Shown: one piece after another, positions 11,515 through 64,000 of the stretch
How the letters are laid out: each line of letters opens with the position of its first letter
Numbering within the stretch: the first letter of the stretch is position 1
Source of the DNA: Polynucleobacter necessarius
Lineage (GTDB): Bacteria; Pseudomonadota; Gammaproteobacteria; Burkholderiales; Burkholderiaceae
Assembly (NCBI RefSeq): GCF_900095205.1
Contig: NZ_LT606951.1
Location: forward strand, 310,001 to 374,000
Length of the DNA stretch: 64,000 nucleotides
Direction of reading: 5' to 3'
Position numbers and translations under genes: made by a program
Notes under the pieces: generated by a model
The model's database searches: none
What the model saw: the letters and a program-made list of their open reading frames with translations, nothing else
Told to the model about the DNA's origin: nothing

Positions 11515-12420
11515 TCAGAATGTCGAGGGGTATTCATTCCAATGCAGTTTCTCGCGCAAAGTTTTGTAGTCGCTATGATTGCTTGGATGTAGTAGCGCAA
11601 TGGTTTTATCGGATTGACGTACTTCAATCTTGTCACTACTTTGTAGATTCGTTTGAGATTGCATATCAAAATTGACAATCACTTCTCGGCCATCAACAAC
11701 TTCAATCACAGTAACGCTATCTTGAGGCAGAACGATTGGTCGATTAGAGAGTGAGTGTGGTGCAATTGGCGCCAATAAAATGCCTGCAACGTGCGGATGC
11801 AAAATAGGTCCGCCGGCCGAAAGAGCATAAGCAGTTGAGCCAGTGGGTGTTGAAACAATCAAGCCATCTGATCTTTGGTTATACATAAATGAGCCATTAA
11901 CGTGCACCGCTAGCTCAACTATTCCAGAAATTCCAGAGCGGTTTACGACCACATCGTTTAAAGCCAAAGCGCGATTGATCTCTTTGCCTTCGCGCATCAC
12001 GACTGCAGCAAGGAGGGTGCGTGTGTCGGCTTCATACTCCCCTGCAATTATTTTGGGTAGGATGGTCTGTACGGACTGAATAGGAATATCCGTCATATAC
12101 CCAAGGCGACCCATATTGATGCCCACAAGGGGCACATTGCTTCCCGCTAGTTGACGGCCAATGCCCAACATCGTGCCGTCTCCTCCAAGAACAACAACCA
12201 AATCAATTGCCCCAGCAAAATCTTCAGCGGTTTTGATTGGGAAGTCTTTTAGGCCTAAATGTTGGGCTGTTGCGGCCTCTAGGAATACCTCGCAACCCAG
12301 ATTTTGTACCAGCATGGCTAGGTCTTTGAGGTGCTCTTCAATGCCATCCGCATGGAATTTGCCGACGAGCGCAACCCGGCTAAATGCCTTCTTGGTGGAA
12401 TTTGGGGATGAGCTTAACAC
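11515..12420 (-). CDS. nadK: NAD kinase
   Basis: Phosphorylates NAD to NADP in the cytosol. Family motifs are clear: [14 protein letters not shown] (GGDG), [12 protein letters not shown], and [21 protein letters not shown] choose the GTG at 12420, giving 301 residues, which fits the family. The frame is open upstream to 12459, but that start lies inside a CCATGG palindrome shared with the hrcA start on the other strand and would add 13 unlikely residues. The gene is divergent from hrcA and probably cotranscribed with recN. Confidence 0.94.
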
Positions 12421-12457
12421 ATAACGATTAAACCATAGGCATAAAATCCCTTCCACC

Positions 12458-13475
12458 ATGGATGAACGTTCCCGCGCACTGCTTAAAACCCTTATCGAGC
12501 GTTATATCGAGGAGGGCCAGCCTATTGGCTCACGGACTCTCTCCAGATTTTCGAGTTTAGACATCTCTGCAGCCACTATTCGTAATGTCATGGCTGATTT
12601 AGGGGAGATGGGGTTGGTCACCAGCCCACATACCTCAGCCGGTCGTATACCGACTCCCAGGGGCTATCGTTTGTTCGTGGATACCATGGTGACGGTTCGT
12701 CCCTTGGAGGAAATGGCGACTCGAGAGGTTGAAAAAGGGCTTTTACCTGACCCTCTCCACAGCGGGTCTTAAATTCTGCAGCTCAGATTTTGTCTAACTT
12801 AACCCATTTTGCTGGGGTGGTGATGACGCCTAAACGTACCCAGGTTTTTAAACATATCGAGTTTTTGCGTCTAGGTGAAGGCAAAATTTTGCTGATCATG
12901 GTGACTCCCGAGGGGGATGTGCAAAATCGTATCTTGCCGACGACTCAGGATTACACACCTAGCCAACTGATCAAAGCGGGTAACTTTATTAATACCCAGT
13001 TTGCAGGAAAAAGTTTTGATCAGGTTCGTGCGCATCTTATTTTATTTCAGACTTAGATAATTTACGCGCTGATATTTCTGGATTAATGGCTTTAGCCCTG
13101 CAAAGCGGTGTTACTGATTACGATCGAGGTGTTGCTGGAATGGTGTTGTCCGATGAGCGTCGTTTGCTAAATGTTGGAGACTTAAATTCCAATCTCGATA
13201 AGTTGCGCAAAATGTTTGATATGTTGGAGCAGAAATCAGTGCTCATGCAATTGCTTGATGTTTCGAGTCATGCGGATGGCGTTCAGATATTTATTGGTGG
13301 TGAGAGTGATTTACTGCCATATGAGGATTTAGCTGTGATCAGTGCCCCATATAGCGTTGATGGCCAAATTGTAGGAATGCTTGGTGTGATAGGGCCTACT
13401 CGAATGGCTTATGACAGAGTCATACCGATAGTAGATATCACTTCTAAATTATTGTCTGGAGCGCTTAGCTCTTAA
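12458..13475 (+). pseudogene. hrcA: broken heat-inducible repressor HrcA
   Basis: HrcA represses chaperone genes by binding CIRCE operators. Three pieces in three frames make up one normal HrcA of about 337 residues. Piece 1 holds the winged helix ([19 protein letters not shown]) and ends at a TAA near 12770. Piece 2 ([13 protein letters not shown]) and piece 3 (NLRADISGLMALAL) hold the rest. Lesion 1 is a missing base near 12752-12758: adding one T restores [15 protein letters not shown]. Lesion 2 is a tandem copy of TTATT at 13037-13046: removing one copy restores [17 protein letters not shown] duplication of five bases is not a usual base-calling error. No functional repressor is expected. 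Confidence 0.92.
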
Positions 13476-14678: not shown

Positions 14679-15233
14679 ATGACACAAGAAAATCAAAATC
14701 CAACTCCAGAGCAAGAAAATCCTGCTGCTGATCCGGCTGCAACCGAATCTGCTGCCACTGAGCCTGCTGCTGTTAAAACTCCTGAGCAAGAAATCGCTGA
14801 GCTCAACCAAAAAATTGGTGAGTTGCAGGACAATTTTTTGCGGGCAAAAGCAGAGGGTGAGAATATCCGTCGCCGTGCTGTTGAAGATATTGCTAAGGCG
14901 CACAAATTTGCAATTGAAAGCTTTGCAGAGCATTTGGTACCGGTGACAGATAGTCTTTATGCTGCATTAAGTACTGATGCTGGGGATGCAAAAGCTTTTA
15001 AAGAAGGTTTAGAAATTACCCTCAAGCAATTACTTTCTGCCTTTGAAAAGGGTCGAATGACCGAAATAAACCCTGCAGTAGGCGATAAATTTGATCCTCA
15101 CCACCATCAGGCCATTGCTTCGGTGTCTTCTGAACAAGAGCCAAATACTGTGGTTTCAGTGCTCCAGCGAGGTTATACGGTGGCAGACAGGGTCTTAAGA
15201 CCCGCTTTAGTGGCCGTTAGCGCCCCAAAATAG
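14679..15233 (+). CDS. grpE: nucleotide exchange factor GrpE
   Basis: Releases ADP from DnaK in the DnaK-DnaJ-GrpE cycle. It has 184 residues: an acidic, alanine- and proline-rich N-terminus, a long helix (about residues 38-80, including [20 protein letters not shown]), and a C-terminal beta domain with [17 protein letters not shown], the most conserved GrpE stretch. It is followed by a strong terminator and a separate dnaK promoter, so grpE and dnaK are separately expressed although adjacent. Confidence 0.95.
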
Positions 15234-15269
15234 GTTAATAAGCCAGGGGGAAAGCCCCAAAAAATGCAT

Positions 15270-15296
15270 AAAAAGGGCAGATTTCTGCCTTTTTTG
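15270..15296 (+). terminator. rho-independent terminator after grpE
   Basis: Inverted repeat around GGCAGA / TCTGCC with a short loop, followed by a run of T at 15289-15295. The flanking A and T tracts extend the stem. It separates grpE from the dnaK promoter. Confidence 0.8.
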
Positions 15297-15307
15297 CTAT
15301 TTATCCC

Positions 15308-15335
15308 CTTGAATTCCTCTTTTTTGACCCCATTT
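15308..15335 (+). promoter_or_regulatory. sigma-32 heat-shock promoter of dnaK
   Basis: CTTGAA at 15308-15313, 14 bases, CCCCATTT at 15328-15335. This matches the RpoH consensus in full at both elements with ideal spacing. It lies 57 bases before the dnaK start, which also has a GGAG ribosome site. I see no CIRCE inverted repeat (TTAGCACTC-N9-GAGTGCTAA) near it. Confidence 0.88.
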
Positions 15336-15392
15336 ATTGAATATTGAAATATTTAGCCGTCCAACATAACAACTTAATTTTTTGGAGCCATT

Positions 15393-17318
15393 ATGGGAAA
15401 GATTATCGGTATCGACTTAGGAACCACGAATTCATGTGTTTCAGTCGTAGAAAACAATGCACCTAAAGTTGTCGAGAATGCCGAAGGCGCTCGCACAACT
15501 CCATCCATCATCGCTTACGTCGAAGATGGCGAAGTATTGGTTGGTGCGCCTGCAAAGCGTCAGTCAGTAACCAATCCTAAGAACACTATCTACGCAGTGA
15601 AGCGTCTGATGGGCCGTAAATTTATTGATCCTGAAGTGCAAAAAGACATTGGCCTTATGCCATACGCAATTATTCAAGCTGACAATGGTGATGCTTGGGT
15701 TGAAGCACGCGACAAGAAAATGGCGCCACAACAAGTGTCCGCTGAAATTCTGCGCAAGATGAAAAAAACAGCTGAAGACTATCTCGGCGAAGAAGTGACA
15801 GAGGCAGTCGTTACTGTTCCTGCTTACTTTAACGATAGCCAACGTCAAGCAACCAAAGATGCTGGTCGTATTGCTGGTTTAGATGTGAAGCGCATCATTA
15901 ATGAGCCAACCGCAGCTGCTTTGGCCTTTGGTTTAGACAAACAAGATAAGGTAGATCGCAAGATTGCTGTATATGACTTGGGTGGCGGCACCTTCGACGT
16001 ATCCATCATTGAGATTGCAAACGTTGACGGCGAGAAGCAATTTGAAGTGCTCTCTACCAACGGCGATACTTTCTTAGGTGGTGAAGACTTTGACCAACGC
16101 ATCATTGATTGGATCGTTACCGAGTTCAAGAAAGAGCAAGGTGTTGACTTGAGTAAAGACGTATTGGCATTGCAGCGTTTGAAAGATGCTGCAGAAAAAG
16201 CCAAGATCGAATTGTCATCCGCCCAACAAACAGAAATCAACTTGCCTTATGTGACAGCTGACGCTAACGGTCCTAAGCATTTGAACTTGAAGTTAACCCG
16301 TGCGAAATTGGAATCTTTGGTTGAAGAGTTGATTAACCGCACGGCTGGCCCTTGCTTAACCGCAATTAAAGATGCCAGTGTGAATGTTGCGGATATTGAC
16401 GACGTGATTTTGGTCGGCGGTCAAACTCGTATGCCTGCGGTTCAAGATAAAGTGAAAGAAATCTTTGGTAAAGAGCCACGTAAGGACGTTAATCCAGATG
16501 AAGCGGTAGCCGTTGGTGCAGCAATTCAAGGCTCTGTCTTGTCTGGCGATCGTAAAAACGTATTGCTCTTGGACGTTACACCATTGTCATTGGGTATCGA
16601 GACTCTTGGCGGCGTGATGACCAAGATGATTCCGAAGAACACTACGATTCCTACTAAGCATTCACAGGTTTACTCTACCGCTGAAGATAACCAGCCTGCC
16701 GTGACCATTAAATGCTTCCAAGGTGAGCGTGAGATGGCTGCTGCCAACAAGTTGCTTGGCGAATTTAACCTTGAAGGGATTGCTCCAGCGCAACGTGGTA
16801 TGCCACAAATTGAGGTGACCTTTGACATCGATGCTAACGGTATTTTGCATGTAACAGCAAAAGATAAAACTACTGGTAAAGAGAACAAGATCACCATCAA
16901 GGCAAACTCTGGCCTAACCGAAGAAGAAATTCAACGTATGGTTAAAGATGCTGAAGCCAATGTTGCGGAAGATAAAAAAGCGCTTGAGTTAGTAACTGCA
17001 CGTAACACTGCTGATGCTTTGGCTCACTCTACCAAGAAGGCTTTGGAGGAGCACGGTGCTAGCTTAGAGGCTTCTGAAAAAGAAGCGATTGAAGCCGCCC
17101 TCAAAGACTTGGATGAAGCAATCAAAGGTAGTGATAAGGAAGCAATTGAATCAAAAACAGAAGTTTTGGGTAAAGCTAGTCAGAAGCTAGGCGAAAAGGC
17201 CATGGCTGCTGAACAGGCTAAAGCTGGTGGTGCCGCTCCTGGTGGCTCAGCCCCTGGTTCTGCTCCTGATGCGGATGTAGTTGATGCAGATTTCAAAGAG
17301 GTTGATGACAAGAAGTAA
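15393..17318 (+). CDS. dnaK: chaperone DnaK (Hsp70)
   Basis: ATP-driven chaperone of 641 residues. ATPase-domain motifs are present: [17 protein letters not shown] at the start, [17 protein letters not shown] phosphate loop ([13 protein letters not shown]) near residue 195 and [12 protein letters not shown] near 340. The substrate domain ([13 protein letters not shown]) and the helical lid follow. The C-terminus has the usual Gly/Ala/Pro-rich linker and the acidic tail [13 protein letters not shown]. The gene is preceded by a perfect sigma-32 promoter and followed by dnaJ 100 bases downstream. Confidence 0.99.
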
Positions 17319-17364
17319 GTTTGTAATCAGACATTCATTAACGCAGTTTTGACGTACTTAAATA

Positions 17365-17389
17365 ACAAGTCGGCCTCGTGCCGACTTGT
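17365..17389 (+). repeat. perfect 10-bp hairpin between dnaK and dnaJ
   Basis: ACAAGTCGGC at 17365-17374 pairs fully with GCCGACTTGT at 17380-17389 around the loop CTCGT. No T run follows, so it is not a standard terminator. A stem here could protect dnaK mRNA from 3' decay or reduce read-through into dnaJ; both are inference. Confidence 0.7.
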
Positions 17390-17418
17390 GTCATTCAGGT
17401 TGTTGAGAGGAATAGGCC

Positions 17419-18543
17419 GTGCCTAAAAGTAAACGCGATTTTTATGAAGTGCTTGGTGTAGCAAAAGGTGCCAGTGATGAAGAGCTGAAAAAAGCCTATC
17501 GCAAATTGGCTATGAAGCATCACCCAGATCGCAACCCAGATAGCAAAACATCCGAAGCCCAATTTAAAGAAGTCAAAGAAGCTTACGAAACTTTAACCGA
17601 CCCCAATAAGCGCGCTGCTTATGATCAATACGGTCACGCTGGTGTAGATCCTTCAATGGGCGGCGGATTTGGCGGTGGTGGCGGTTTTGCAGATGCTTTT
17701 GGCGATATTTTTGGCGATATCTTCGGCCAAGGTGGTGGTCGTCATTCCGGCCCCCAAGTTTATAAAGGCGCTGACTTGCGCTACAACATGGATATCACTC
17801 TTGAGCAGGCCGCGGAAGGTTATACAACTCAAATTCGTGTGCCAAGTTGGAGTAATTGCAAGCCATGTCACGGTACGGGTGCTGAACCAGGAACCAAGGC
17901 GGAAAAATGTACTACCTGTGATGGTCATGGCCAGGTTCGCATTCAGCAGGGCTTCTTTTCAATGCAACAGACTTGTCCAAAGTGTCGCGGCACAGGCGAG
18001 TACATACCAAAGCCTTGCAAAACATGCCATGGTAGCGGTAAACATAAAGAGCAAAAAACCCTTGAGATCAAGATACCAGCAGGTATTGATGATGGCATGC
18101 GAGTACGCTCGTTTGGCAATGGGGAGCCCGGTATTAATGGCGGCCCATCTGGCGATCTCTATGTAGAGGTGCATGTAAAGCCTCATAAAGTATTTGAACG
18201 TGATGGCAGTGATTTGCATGTCCAAATGCCAATCTCTTTTGCGACCGCAACCATTGGTGGAGAAATAGAAGTGCCAACCCTTTCGGGACGTGTTGAGTTT
18301 CCGATTCCTGAGGGAACTCAAACTGGTAAAACATTTCGCTTACGTCACAAGGGGATTAAGGGCTTACGCTCCACTTTAGTGGGCGATCTTTTTGTTCACG
18401 TTTTCGTTGAGACGCCTATCAAACTGACGGAAGAGCAAAAGAAATTACTGCAGAAGTTTGATGACAGCCTGAAGTCTGGTGGCGATAAGCACAGCCCACA
18501 GCAAAAGGGTTGGTTTGAAGGTGTGAAAAGTTTCTTTAGTTAA
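17419..18543 (+). CDS. dnaJ: co-chaperone DnaJ (Hsp40)
   Basis: Delivers substrates to DnaK and stimulates its ATPase. It has 374 residues and full type I layout: J domain with HPD in KHHPDRNPD near residue 33, a Gly/Phe-rich stretch (about 77-110), and four zinc repeats ([32 protein letters not shown]), then two C-terminal beta domains. Start is GTG at 17419 ([14 protein letters not shown]). It follows dnaK after a hairpin. Confidence 0.98.
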
Positions 18544-57275: not shown

Positions 57276-58172
57276 ATGTCACTTATGCAATCTTTTGGTA
57301 AACCATCCATCCTGATTATTGGCTGTGGAGACATCGGACTTCGTGTAGCTAAACAGCTTTCGCGAAGTCATCGTGTTTTTGCTCTCACTTCCCAACGTAA
57401 TCGCTTTCAGGAGTTGAGGAAGGTTGGCGCAATCCCAATTTTAGGGAATCTGGATCATCCAGAATCTTTATGGCGCCTCAGCGGATTAGCTCAAACCGTG
57501 ATCCATTTAGCGCCACCACAAAATAGTGGGAATCGTGATTGCCGAACCCGCAACCTCATTCGAATTTTAGCCCAAGGCCCCAATGCCGTCAGGCGCCTCA
57601 TTTATATCAGCACGACTGGTGTATATGGTGATCATCAGGGCGCCAAAGTGAGTGAGGTGACTCCAGTAAACCCACAAAGCGAGCGCGCCAAGAGACGAGT
57701 TGATGCTGAATGTGCCCTACGTCTTTGGGCGCCTGCGCATGGGGTAACTTTAACGATTCTGCGTGTTCCAGGGATTTATGCATCTGACCGACTGCCGATT
57801 GAACGCCTTCAGGCTAAAACACCTGCCTTAGTGCATCAGGAGGATGCCTATTCCAATCATATTCATAGCGATGATTTGGCAAGATTGGTGTGCGCCGCAG
57901 TTTATTTTGCAAAGCCGCAGCGGGTTATCAATGTGTGTGATGGTAATGAAACAAAAATGGGCGATTACTTTGATGAAGTGGCCGATGCATTTGGCTTGGA
58001 AAGACCGGCTCGATTGCCAAGTAGCGAACTGCAAAAAGTGGTTAGTCCAATGCTTTGGTTTTTTATGCGCGAATCTCGCAGAGTGACGAACACCCGCATA
58101 CATGAACTCAGAATGCCGCTACGCTATCCCAGCGTAGGACATTTTTTGAAAGCTATTTCCAAGAATCCTTAA
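57276..58172 (+). CDS. NAD-dependent epimerase/dehydratase-like SDR protein
   Basis: Atypical short-chain dehydrogenase of 298 residues, similar to YeeZ. The Rossmann loop is IIGCGDIGLRVAKQL. An active-site-like region is RRLIYISTTGVYGDHQGAKV, where YGD replaces the YxxxK of classical SDR enzymes. The middle has ILRVPGIYASDRLPIERLQ and the C-terminus YPSVGHFLKAI. The substrate is not known. Its end overlaps glnS by 20 bases in convergent order. Confidence 0.8.
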   Translation: MSLMQSFGKPSILIIGCGDIGLRVAKQLSRSHRVFALTSQRNRFQELRKVGAIPILGNLDHPESLWRLSGLAQTVIHLAPPQNSGNRDCRTRNLIRILAQGPNAVRRLIYISTTGVYGDHQGAKVSEVTPVNPQSERAKRRVDAECALRLWAPAHGVTLTILRVPGIYASDRLPIERLQAKTPALVHQEDAYSNHIHSDDLARLVCAAVYFAKPQRVINVCDGNETKMGDYFDEVADAFGLERPARLPSSELQKVVSPMLWFFMRESRRVTNTRIHELRMPLRYPSVGHFLKAISKNP

Positions 58173-59925
58173 GGCTAACCGTACGGTTAAATACCGGCTT
58201 GCCAAGTTTGGAATCGTTCTTGTCTGCAACGAAGTAGCCATGGCGTTCAAATTGAAAGCGATCTTCTGCTTTGACATCCTTCATACACGGCTCTATGTAA
58301 GCGTTAATTATTTGCTTGGAGTTGGGATTAGTGGCATCTAAGAAATTCTTCTCACCACTATCGGGATGTGGATCGGTAAAGAGATGATCGAAAAGGCGCA
58401 CCTCAGCAGGGATGGCCTCGGCAGCGCTGATCCAGTGAATATTACCTTTGATCTTGTAATTATTAGAGCCTGGCGTGCCGCTCTTACTATCTGGGAAGTG
58501 GGTTACATGGACTTGAGTGATTTTCCCTTGAGTATCAGTTTCAAAACCGGTGCACTCGACTACAAAGCCATGGCGTAAACGCACACGGCTACCGGGCTGA
58601 TCACCAATTGGTGGGTATAGCCTGAAGAATCCTTTGATAGGTTCTTGCATGAAGTCATCTGCCTCAATCCACAGTTCGCGTGTGAAGTTGAAGTCACGAT
58701 TGCCCCACTCAGGATGATTTGGATGGCGTGGTGCAGAACAAGCCTCTTTTGCAAAGGCATCAAAATTTTCAACTACAAGCTTTAGCGGTTTTAATACTGC
58801 AGTTGCTCGCGATGCTCTAACCTCGAGATCATCGCGCAGAGCCTGATCTAGCGTGCTCATATCAATCCAGCTATCTGCTTTAGACACGCCAATGCGTTCA
58901 CAAAACAGACGAATGCTCTCAGGGGTATAACCACGACGCCGAATACCTACGATAGTTGGCATACGCGGATCATCCCAGCCTTCTACATGCTTTTCTTCAA
59001 CAAGCTGCAAAAGCTTACGTTTACTAGTAATGGTATATGTAAGGTTGAGGCGTGCGAATTCGTATTGATGTGGAACTGGGTCCTTAAATAAACCAAGCTC
59101 TTTGAGGGAGTTCACAATCCAATCGTACAAAGGGCGATTGTTTTCAAACTCCAGTGTACATATGGAGTGAGAGACGTTCTCTAGGGCATCAGAGATGCAA
59201 TGTGTGAAGTCATACAGCGGGTAAATACACCACTTACTGCCAGTACGATGGTGATCGGTATGGCGAACGCGATACACCACAGGATCACGCATGACGATAT
59301 TTGGATGAGACATGTCAATTTTCAGGCGTAAAACGTGTTCACCGTCTTTAAATTTGCCATCACGCATGTCGCGAAACATTTGCAGATTTTCTTCTGGGCT
59401 GCGATCGCGATAAGGGCTATTTTTTCCGGCCTGACCAAAGTTGCCGCGATTGGTATGGATGTCATCAGCACTTTGACTATCAACATACGCCTTACCATTT
59501 TGAATTAGGATCTCGGCAAACTCATACAGTTTGTCAAAGTAGTCGCTTGCGTGATAGAGATGGGCTCCCCAGTCAAAACCTAACCACTTGACCGCATCCA
59601 AAATACTATCGGCGTACTCAACATCTTCCTTTACTGGGTTGGTGTCATCTAAGCGCATATTGCAACGAGCGCCACCAGCTTGGTTGTTGTAATCAGCGGC
59701 TAAACCAAAGTTCAGGCAAATACTTTTAGCGTGGCCAATATGCAAATAGCCATTTGGCTCAGGCGAAAAGCGTGTGATGATGGATGGAATAGGTTGTTCA
59801 GCTAAATTTGTGCGCTGTGAAAAAGCGCCGCTAGCTAAATCATGGTCAATGATCTGACGTAAGAAGTTGGACGGTTCGGCTACACCGCCGGCACTTGCTT
59901 TGGGGGGTTTGCTATCTTGGGACAT
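58153..59925 (-). CDS. glnS: glutaminyl-tRNA synthetase
   Basis: Class I synthetase of about 590 residues. The HIGH signature is in RFSPEPNGYLHIGHAKSICL, the second signature in ITSKRKLLQLVEEKHVEGWD, and DDTNPVKEDVEY and FDFTHC-like YPLYDFTHCISDALE are also diagnostic. C-terminal anticodon-binding beta barrels end in RTVSLKDSW. ATG at 59925 (MSQDSKPPKAS) is preferred over GTG at 59931. Presence of GlnRS fits a gamma/betaproteobacterium. Confidence 0.96.
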   Translation of the reverse strand: MSQDSKPPKASAGGVAEPSNFLRQIIDHDLASGAFSQRTNLAEQPIPSIITRFSPEPNGYLHIGHAKSICLNFGLAADYNNQAGGARCNMRLDDTNPVKEDVEYADSILDAVKWLGFDWGAHLYHASDYFDKLYEFAEILIQNGKAYVDSQSADDIHTNRGNFGQAGKNSPYRDRSPEENLQMFRDMRDGKFKDGEHVLRLKIDMSHPNIVMRDPVVYRVRHTDHHRTGSKWCIYPLYDFTHCISDALENVSHSICTLEFENNRPLYDWIVNSLKELGLFKDPVPHQYEFARLNLTYTITSKRKLLQLVEEKHVEGWDDPRMPTIVGIRRRGYTPESIRLFCERIGVSKADSWIDMSTLDQALRDDLEVRASRATAVLKPLKLVVENFDAFAKEACSAPRHPNHPEWGNRDFNFTRELWIEADDFMQEPIKGFFRLYPPIGDQPGSRVRLRHGFVVECTGFETDTQGKITQVHVTHFPDSKSGTPGSNNYKIKGNIHWISAAEAIPAEVRLFDHLFTDPHPDSGEKNFLDATNPNSKQIINAYIEPCMKDVKAEDRFQFERHGYFVADKNDSKLGKPVFNRTVSLKDSWK

Positions 59926-60006
59926 AGCCACATTGTAGAGAAAACCCCGAGACCCTTAAAGAGCCTGCTAACTGCAGCGGGCTTGTTTCTGGGAAGCTAC
60001 AAGGAA

Positions 60007-61523
60007 TCAATTCTCCACGAATGCCTCTTCGCGAGTCTTCTTCACCGTTGGCAGAGCTACAATCACCACCAACAGGGCTGCTGCAATCAGCAAGCTTAAA
60101 GACAGAAGACGGGTTACGAAGGTTGAGAAGTCGCCACGTGACAACAAAATAGTGCACGGCGGAAGTTCTCTTCCATCATTGGTCCGAGCACAAAGCCCAA
60201 GAGCAATGGAGGAGGTTCGTAACCGAGCTTGAAGAAGAGGTAACCAATCAAGCCAAAGCCTGCGGTCACATAAACGTCAACCACGGTGTTGTTCACGGTG
60301 TACATACTATACAGCAGAACACCAAAATTGCTGGGTAAAGGAAGCGATAAGGAATCTTCAAGAGCTTCACCCAAATACCAATGAGTGGCAAGTTCAAGAG
60401 AATCAACATCACGTTGCCAATCCACATAGAAGCAATCAGACCCCAGAACAAGGCTGGATTGCTAGTTATCACTTGTGGGCCAGGTTGAATGTTGTGAACA
60501 GTCATTGCGCCAACCATCAAGGTCATCACAGCATTTGGTGGGATACCTAATGTGAGCAATGGAACAAATGATAAGTGATGTTTGTGCAGCAGCATTGTTT
60601 GCTGCTTCTGGGCCTGCAACACCCTCGATCGCACCTTTACCGAATTCGTGGCTGTACTTAGAAGACTTCTTCTCAACAGAGTAGGCACCAAACACTGCAG
60701 CCAATGCCGCACCGCCGCCTGGCAAGATTCCCAAGATAGAACCAATAGTGGTGCCGCGCAAGATGGATGGAATCATGCACTTCACATCATTCTTAGTTGG
60801 GATCATGCTGGTGAGCTTATTGAGGAAGCCTTCATCTTCACCAGACTTTTAAGGTTGCCCATGATTTCTGCGAAACCAAATACGCCCATAGCAACTGCTA
60901 CGAAGCCAATACCGTCGCTCAACTCAGGAATATCAAATGCATAGCGAGATACGCCAGAGTTCACGTCAGTACCAATCAAGCCCATCAGTAGACCCAAGAT
61001 GATTATGCCAATCGCTTTGATCAAAGAGCCAGATGCCAATACCACTGCACCAATTAAGCCTAAGACCATCAACGAGAAGTACTCAGCAGGACCAAACTTA
61101 AATGCGAGTTGTGAGAGTGGGGCAGCAAAGGCAGCCAAGACCAAAGTTGCCACGCAACCAGCAAAGAATGAGCGCCCATACCCGCTAAGTAAAGAGTGCA
61201 ACACCAGCGCGACCATTTCGAGCCATTTGATAGCCGTCGATCGCAGTCACCACCGAGGACGTCTCTCCTGGGATATTTAAGAGAATCGCTGTTGTTGAGC
61301 CGCCGTACTGTGAGCCGTAGTAAATACCAGCCAACATAATCAATACTGCAATTGGAGGTAAGGCATAAGTAGCTGGCAAAAGCATCGCAATTGTTGCGAT
61401 AGGACCAAGACCAGGCAATACGCCAATGAGTGTTCCTAAAATACAACCGACGAGGCAGTACAGAAGATTTTGTAGTGTGAACGCGGCATCAAAACCGAGA
61501 GCTAAATTAGTAAATAAATCCAT
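60007..61523 (-). pseudogene. tctA: broken tripartite tricarboxylate transporter subunit TctA
   Basis: Large membrane subunit of a TTT-family citrate-type transporter. The start MDLFTNLALGFDAAFTLQNL and family signature YGSQYGGSTTAILLNIPGE are in one frame and break near 61190-61210, where relatives read GRAG-x-AL then SFFAG. The next piece (LIKAIGIIILGLLMGLIGTD, FGFAEIMGNL) shifts near 60840, and later pieces (SILGILPGGGAALAAVFGAY, LLTLGIPPNAVMTLMVGAMT, FKLGYEPPPLLLGFVLGPMM) shift again. The last piece ends VALPTVKKTREEAFVEN at 60007. Restored length is about 500 residues, normal for TctA. At least five frame breaks. Confidence 0.9.
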
Positions 61524-61526
61524 TTT

Positions 61527-61998
61527 TCAGAGTCCCGGTTCGTTATTGTTGTAGGAATACAGGCAGGAGGGGAACTGAAGTTTCAGGCCCAACACAAATA
61601 CTGAATAAGTGAACGTTACTAAGAAGGCTGCATTGATAGCGGTGCCTTTCCAGGTAAATTCTTTGCTTGCACTGGCCGAGATAAATACCAAAACTACAAC
61701 TGCAATCAAGAAACCAAGGCGAGGTAGCAGGATGCCATAGAGCACGACTGCACCAGTAATTTGGGCAATGATCTTCCAATTAAATTTAGATATGGATTCA
61801 ATGGCTGCTTTAGCTCCGAAAGCTTTGACCGCAACTAGAACCCCCAAAAGGAACATCAAAATGCCCAAATAGGAAGTAGCCTGGACCCATTTTTGCAGCA
61901 GTGCCTATTGGATATTGGGTAGCCATGATGGCGAAGAAGAGGCCGATGACCATGTACATGACCCCAGCCCCAAAATCCCGTTGATTGCGAATTTTCAA
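61527..61998 (-). pseudogene. tctB: broken tripartite tricarboxylate transporter subunit TctB
   Basis: Small membrane subunit of the same transporter. The start (MKIRNQRDFGAGVMYMVIGL) runs to TAAKMGPGYF, then the frame is lost near 61875-61885. The rest (LGILMFLLGVLVAVKAFGAK, VVLYGILLPRLGFLIAVVVL) continues in another frame to 61527. The expected GPGYFP motif is damaged at the break. A binding-protein gene (tctC) would normally lie upstream, but alaS is there instead, on the other strand. Confidence 0.87.
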
Positions 61999-62120: not shown

Positions 62121-64000
62121 ATGAAAGTTTCCCAAATTCGCCAGGCTTACCTGGATTTCTTTGCCCAAAAGGGCCACCAAATCGTTCCATCCAGCCCTGT
62201 AGTGCCGGGGGATGACCCAACCCTGCTATTTACCAATGCAGGTATGAATCAGTTCAAAGACGTGTTCTTGGGTTTTGATAGGCGCCCTTATCACCGTGCT
62301 ACGACAGCCCAAAAGTGCATTCGGGCTGGAGGAAAGCACAATGACTTAGATAACGTCGGCTATACAGCCCGTCATCACACCTTTTTTGAAATGTTGGGAA
62401 ATTTCTCCTTTGGGGACTATTTTAAGAAAGACGCAATCCAGTTTGCTTGGGATTTGTTGACGCAAGTCTTTGAATTACCTAAAGAAAAACTCTTGGTGAC
62501 TGTTTATGCTGAAGACGATGAGGCATATGAGATTTGGAATAAACAAATAGGCGTTCCTGCCGATCGCATTATTCGGATTGGGGACAACAAGGGTGCGCGT
62601 TACGCATCAGACAATTTCTGGATGATGGGAGACACAGGGCCTTGTGGCCCTTGTACAGAAATTTTTTACGATCACGGCGAGCATATTCCTGGCTGTCCTC
62701 CTGGCTGTCCTCCTGGCTGTCCTCCTGGCAGTCCTCCTGGCAGTCCAGATGAAGATGGTGATCATTTTATCGAAATTTGGAATAACGTCTTTATGCAGTT
62801 CAATCGGGATGAGGCAGGTGTAATGCATCCGTTACCTAAGCCTAGCGTTGATACCGGCATGGGTCTTGAGCGAATAGCTGCAGTTTTGCAGCATGTTCAC
62901 TCCAATTATGAAATCGATCTTTTCGTTAATTTGCTCAAAGCTTCCAAACAGGCAGTAGACGTTGCTGGCGGAGACAACTGTGATGCAGAAAGCCCTTCAT
63001 TGAAGGTGATTGCTGACCACATCCGCGCCTGTAGCTTTATCGTGGTTGATGGTGTGATTCCGGGTAATGCTGGGCGTGGATATGTATTGCGTCGTATTGC
63101 CCGTCGTGCGATTCGTCATGGATACAAGCTTGGCGCCCGAAAGCCATTTTTTTATCAATTGGTACCAGCACTTGTAAAAGAGATGGGCGATGCTTATCCA
63201 GAGTTGTGTGCGGCTCAAGATAAGGTCAGTGAAGTGCTAAAGCAGGAAGAAGAGCGTTTCTTCCAAACGATTGCTAATGGTATGGAAATTTTGGATGGAG
63301 CCTTAGCGAGTGGCGCAAAAGTGGTTGATGGTGAAACTGCATTCCGCCTGCATGATACTTTTGGTTTCCCGTTGGATTTAACAGCTGACGTTTGCCGCGA
63401 ACGTGGCGTCACTGTTGATGCGGATGGCTTTGAAGTTGCGATGCAAAAGCAGCGCGATCAAGCCAGAGCTGCTGGTAAGTTCAAGGTAGCACAGGGATTA
63501 GATTACAAAGGTACGCCGACCCAGTTTCATGGCTATGACACCTTAAAACACGAGGGCGCGAAAGTATCCGCCTTGTATGTTGATGGTTCAGCCGTGCCGT
63601 CTGTCAAAGCTGGTGATGCCGCTGTGATTGTGTTGGATAGCACCCCTTTCTATGCGGAGTCTGGTGGTCAGGTTGGCGACAAGGGGGAGCTTCGTAATGA
63701 AAGCATCCGTTTCGCAGTAGAAGATACTTTTAAGATCCAAGCAGATGTATTTGGTCATCAAGGCGAAGTGCTTGAGGGAGAGTTGAAGGTAGGCGATTTG
63801 CTGAATGCATTGGTAGATACTCAGCAAAGAATTGACGCCATGCGGAACCACAGTGCAACTCACATCTTGTATAAAGCATTACGTGAAGTGTTGGGTGATC
63901 ATGTGCAGCAAAAAGGGTCACTGGTCGATGCTACAAAGACCCGTTTTGACTTTACACACAAGGCACCAGTCACCGCTGAGCAAATTCGTCGCATTGAAGA
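62121..64000 (+). CDS. alaS: alanyl-tRNA synthetase, 5' part
   Basis: Class II synthetase; about 627 of some 875 codons lie in the window and the frame is open to the end. It starts [20 protein letters not shown]. Motif 1-3 region is recognisable by [49 protein letters not shown] and [13 protein letters not shown]. The editing domain shows [15 protein letters not shown] and the zinc-site [19 protein letters not shown]. Residues 190-209, within the aminoacylation domain, are a fivefold repeat of four residues (PGCP/PGSP) where relatives have a single GGPPGSP. Directly after it DEDGDHF has His where relatives have Arg (DGDRF or DGDRY). Confidence 0.96.
62688..62747 (+). repeat. 12-bp minisatellite, five copies, in frame within alaS
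   Basis: Five tandem units: CCTGGCTGTCCT three times (62688, 62700, 62712), CCTGGCAGTCCT (62724), CCTGGCAGTCCA (62736). Each unit encodes Pro-Gly-Cys-Pro or Pro-Gly-Ser-Pro. The length is a multiple of three, so the alaS frame is kept. The last two units match the ancestral PPGSP; the first three are near copies with a Cys codon. Copy number is likely unstable through slippage. Confidence 0.95.

Follow-up and report, generated by a model that had tools for sequence, protein, structure and literature searches.

A 12-bp tandem repeat has expanded in frame inside alaS, the gene for alanyl-tRNA synthetase (AlaRS), of the genome analysed here (hereafter the source genome), adding twelve residues to a loop of the catalytic domain. 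This is a real expansion in an essential enzyme, so far known from one genome and, within what was searched, found there alone. The reading that we consider probable is that a two-unit repeat slipped recently and that drift preserved the result in a genome undergoing decay; the slippage mechanism, the neutrality of the change, a working enzyme and an endosymbiotic way of life are each what we infer from the pattern described below.

Results

The window (the whole stretch of DNA that was analysed, 64,000 nucleotides long) ends within alaS, and coordinates throughout are given in its numbering, also where the sequence was followed beyond its end. The gene and the features inside it are as follows:

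62121..64000, continuing past the window end, + strand: alaS, alanyl-tRNA synthetase, 886 amino acids (open reading frame, Pfam and a single genome match)
62688..62747, + strand: five 12-bp units in frame, encoding alaS residues 190–209 (direct reading and Tandem Repeats Finder)
62694..62729, + strand: 36 bp, or 12 residues, without counterpart in the relatives by alignment to the ortholog of relative G069; their placement inside the repeat is arbitrary, and alignment to E. coli AlaRS (3hxu) puts the surplus slightly elsewhere
62763..62765, + strand: codon CAT, encoding His at residue 215 (203 in the 874-residue numbering), six residues past the repeat

The full frame including its stop codon occupies 62121–64781 and is complete at 886 codons, extending over the whole gene what a first-pass annotation made from the sequence had described as an open frame of 1.9 kb. 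It is single-copy, with one match in the source genome (1.93 Mb, one contig, 99.92% complete), and its product is longer than that of 34 close relatives, 33 of which have 874 amino acids and one (L035) 877. The class II AlaRS catalytic domain (PF01411) scores 716.9 bits against a cut-off of 30.3, and both the editing-type SAD domain (PF07973) and the C-terminal DHHA1 domain (PF02272) lie above their cut-offs on the full protein. The product thus shares its full set of three Pfam domains with the family to which E. coli-type AlaRS belongs, and the E. coli catalytic fragment 3hxu aligns with its residues 3–453 with the flanks of the loop conserved, but it differs from that enzyme in having 12 more loop residues and a change of Arg to His just after them. 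Position 203 in the 874-residue numbering is Arg in all of 109 other loci and all of 216 retrieved database proteins, and His in the source genome.

Read in the alaS frame, the array consists of CCTGGCTGTCCT three times, then CCTGGCAGTCCT, then CCTGGCAGTCCA. Tandem Repeats Finder calls it at 62687–62746 with period 12, 5.0 copies, 97% match and a score of 106, against a best score of 76 and a mean of best scores of 43 when the window was dinucleotide-shuffled 100 times. An in-frame 12-bp minisatellite expansion in the AlaRS catalytic domain, as had been proposed from first inspection, is therefore confirmed, with three units more than in the relatives. Within 80 kb of the source genome no wider tendency towards repeat expansion was seen, since the alaS array alone scores at least 50 there and its repeat DNA matches one place genome-wide; the comparison stretches contain one such array in 80 kb of G069 (score 52) and two in 60 kb of genome G081 (65 and 75), all in other sequence.

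The stretch from GPCG to EIWN measures 49 residues in the source genome and 37 in 109 of 109 other loci, which comprise members of the same genus (L002–L030), loci at 85–94% identity (L031–L036) and mostly other Betaproteobacteria, with at least one genome included twice (L005 and L036, from two collections). It is likewise 37 residues long in 216 of 216 retrieved database proteins. The loop of the relatives corresponds to two diverged units, mostly PGGPPGSP, and three units (12 residues) are new in the source genome. The closest protein found (P0009, from ENA) is 97.25% identical outside the insert and has the plain loop.

Surveys with one genome per species extended this comparison. A 77-residue piece spanning the loop matched 184 of 186 genomes of the genus (the two without a match were left uncounted), its own genome at an E-value of 1.2e-54 and the 183 others at 2.1e-37 to 7.2e-30; on visual reading, the matches listed fall 36 bp short of that of the source genome. 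At the level of the class, 258 of 274 genomes matched (16 without a match uncounted), the 257 others at 1.7e-30 or weaker, and visual reading of the matches listed again gives a deficit of 36 bp over the part of the query that they cover. Among the matching genomes besides the source genome, 183 in the genus and 257 in the class, none has a score indicative of an expanded loop, the unlisted ones being judged by their best E-values, by which a differently composed expansion in a distant genome could escape. The expanded loop is also absent among the 120 listed of 7,998 scored proteins that have most words in common with it, drawn from a library clustered at 90%, within which an expanded close variant could hide inside a cluster. 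A five-unit loop in relatives, which would have spoken against the originally claimed expansion, was thus sought and not found, and the claim stands. Public data also include a partial Microvirga AlaRS (P0001) in which a portion of the catalytic domain is tandemly duplicated, possibly an assembly error.

Structural comparison places the twelve residues as the sole gap between DHG and EIWN relative to the E. coli catalytic fragment. In Aquifex aeolicus AlaRS (1riq), 21 residues of the source genome's protein lack a counterpart, and nine of those fall within the plain loop; this enzyme, too, differs from E. coli in loop length at the same place, although it is shorter here whereas the source genome is longer by tandem expansion. 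An AlphaFold2 model of the alaS product is weak (mean pLDDT 68.0), with E. coli AlaRS as its best structural alignment, and shows residues 190–200 as coil at confidence below 50 between strands 175–184 and 216–229. The earlier suggestion that the enzyme tolerates the loop holds in a softened form: tolerance is probable, judging from the partial absence of the loop in Aquifex AlaRS and from the low-confidence coil of a weak model. An AlaRS can do without the full loop, though loop length is constant in the class matches listed, a constancy which points to some constraint on the loop and counts against neutrality.

Codon comparisons, from which the 877-residue L035 was excluded, gave alaS a dN/dS of 0.020 when paired with the nearest genome, at a dS of 0.985 that is close to saturation, and a median of 0.021 over 33 relatives, the seventh highest of 34 in a field otherwise spanning 0.0145–0.0354. 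That the gene is under selection, as first surmised, is upheld by these values of about 0.02; they indicate purifying selection and, with the single genome match, would imply that aminoacylation activity is retained. At positions invariant in 34 relatives, alaS of the source genome has ten replacements, compared with three in P0009 and none in L002. One lies inside the repeat, one is Arg203 to His, and eight lie outside the loop (54, 351, 572, 602, 736, 759, 829 and 835 in the 874-residue numbering), including Arg351 to Cys and His572 to Tyr. In the set used for dN/dS, unique residues at otherwise invariant positions number 11 in the source genome, 15 in L034 and 10 in L032, the latter two being more distant relatives. 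Over 33 ortholog triplets the source genome has 320 unique changes versus 265 in G069, and in alaS 21 versus 9. These figures suggest that the cell needs the enzyme but that constraint on it is somewhat relaxed; the signs of this relaxation are modest and just mildly visible.

The neighbourhood of alaS is eroded. Directly upstream lies the following feature, named from intact G069 orthologs:

60010..61998, − strand: remains of tctA and tctB, tctA with frameshifts and stops, tctB with frameshifts

Of 58 genes that the window (1–64000) and its extension to 79999 share in synteny with G069, frameshifts or stops have disrupted 18, about three of these calls being doubtful: a synthetase scored at 58156–59961 and a gene at 11518–12660, both of which may reflect G069 starts read too far upstream (the latter was also flagged in a control), and a 91-codon frame that overlaps the end of alaS. 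Probes from G081 gave 15 broken genes of 50 over the same range. Under the same criteria, the controls showed 1 broken gene among 50 when G081 genes were compared with G069, and 2 among 51 for G069 genes in G081; genes with less than 70% coverage or less than 55% identity were left out of the count. The genome is in early decay, which suggests a host-bound or recently host-bound Polynucleobacter. The synthetase gene that adjoins the tct remains is of glutamyl/glutaminyl type (58153–59931, − strand) and has 592 codons versus 627 in a G069 frame that may be read too long; a single stop falls within the alignment.

In the passages of PMC5018217 drawn on here, Polynucleobacter necessarius is an obligate Euplotes endosymbiont with about 1.6 Mbp, 44–46% G+C and many pseudogenes. 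The source genome is alike in belonging to the same genus by protein likeness and in its many broken genes, but is larger at 1.93 Mb; its G+C of 45.5% agrees with the range given there and does not discriminate, because relative G069 likewise has 45.5%.

Discussion

The repeat appears to have had a starting point in the ancestral loop. Two 12-bp halves are already present in 34 of 34 relatives, agreeing at 6–11 of 12 bases, with 16 relatives showing 8 of 12. In the source genome three units are identical at all 12 bases, and a single base separates the remaining two. Because these copies have hardly diverged, the array is presumably young and the gain recent. At the third codon of the first unit all 34 relatives have GGN, and the source genome has TGT. 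On the simplest course of events, replication slippage (or unequal recombination) on the pre-existing imperfect two-unit repeat would have added three units, with the Gly to Cys change (GGN to TGT) arising before or together with them. Since each unit is four codons long, the reading frame is preserved whatever the number of copies, and the enzyme would keep working with an insert in a class II catalytic-domain loop that not every AlaRS holds in full. Being in frame and in a length-tolerant loop, the expansion could have been retained by drift in a gene-losing genome, as in the ciliate endosymbionts of Polynucleobacter. The many broken genes and the other unusual alaS replacements favour drift over function, and the twelve added residues are most likely a harmless accident of a gene-losing genome rather than a new function. 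The replacement of Arg by His six residues past the array might be compensatory and not a chance change.

Alternatively, the array could still be changing as a variable-number repeat, with copy numbers that differ between cells and give AlaRS variants. Near-identical units and a period divisible by three do give it the form of a phase-variable coding tandem repeat, as expected of an unstable coding repeat, but at sixty bases and five units it is short, none of the 216 other retrieved proteins has a copy number above two (the array being known from one genome), and the 183 matching genus genomes show no expanded-loop score, so that we regard such variation as distinctly unlikely. The in-frame structural variants of PE/PPE genes resemble it in that they change length while keeping frame, some of them in tandem repeats; in the passages of PMC12817950 used here, however, PE/PPE genes are mostly non-essential in vitro, whereas alaS encodes a core enzyme and its array comes from one genome. 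An artefact of assembly or sequencing is highly improbable: the units carry internal variants (TGT/AGT and CCT/CCA), the alaS frame is intact in a genome of one nearly complete contig, and a 60-bp array is shorter than common short reads. The cysteines that the first-pass annotation had seen in three units are indeed there, spaced by four residues in a stretch, EIF to EIWN, that is free of Cys at every one of the 109 other loci, and could be imagined as a new metal-binding or redox-sensing site. One codon change that was then copied can nevertheless yield all three, and selection is not needed to explain them; the aligned E. coli chain (3hxu) has no such stretch and model confidence at residues 190–200 is below 50, which together make a site of this kind extremely improbable. 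For the consequences raised at the outset, namely changed charging, redox sensitivity and a cell-to-cell spread of copy number, nothing has been found in support as yet.

The expansion also multiplies PPG motifs, and four of them in a row might slow the ribosome, make AlaRS synthesis dependent on EF-P and let the expansion tune AlaRS level. The loop contains four PPG in the source genome, one in 96 of 109 other loci and none in the remaining 13, and a supplementary-table legend in PMC4739656 marks PPG among proline motifs. Open frames for EF-P and EarP, the rhamnosyl transferase of EF-P, lie adjacent in the source genome, and RmlC- and RmlD-family frames, the two families searched, are present as well; with these the cell seems able to translate the PPG run. 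Yet most plain loops contain a single PPG to begin with and there is no sign of selection for more, and tuning of this kind is unlikely, though the four-PPG loop may have a side effect on translation. Were the run to matter, AlaRS supply would be tied to EF-P. It is very unlikely that these elements combine, with a young, frame-safe and slippage-prone repeat letting a decaying symbiont use unit number to vary the output or behaviour of AlaRS by way of EF-P-dependent PPG stalling.

Recent slippage retained by drift would make this locus a natural example of how far a length-conserved core enzyme can change once its genome decays. The relatives measured hold one length, and the stretch is about a third longer in the source lineage; the case bears on whether such constancy reflects function or just a lack of opportunity.

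In a comparison with G069 of 40 orthologs, leaving out those that differ by more than 10% in length and with indels unpolarised, six indels were found, and the five besides alaS are just 1–4 amino acids long, which argues against a general burst of expansions and to that extent counts against the favoured reading. Elsewhere in the window, grpE, dnaK and dnaJ lie intact in a row at 14679–18543, with in-frame differences from G069 of +2, −4 and −4 residues, those in dnaK and dnaJ sitting in Gly-rich stretches.
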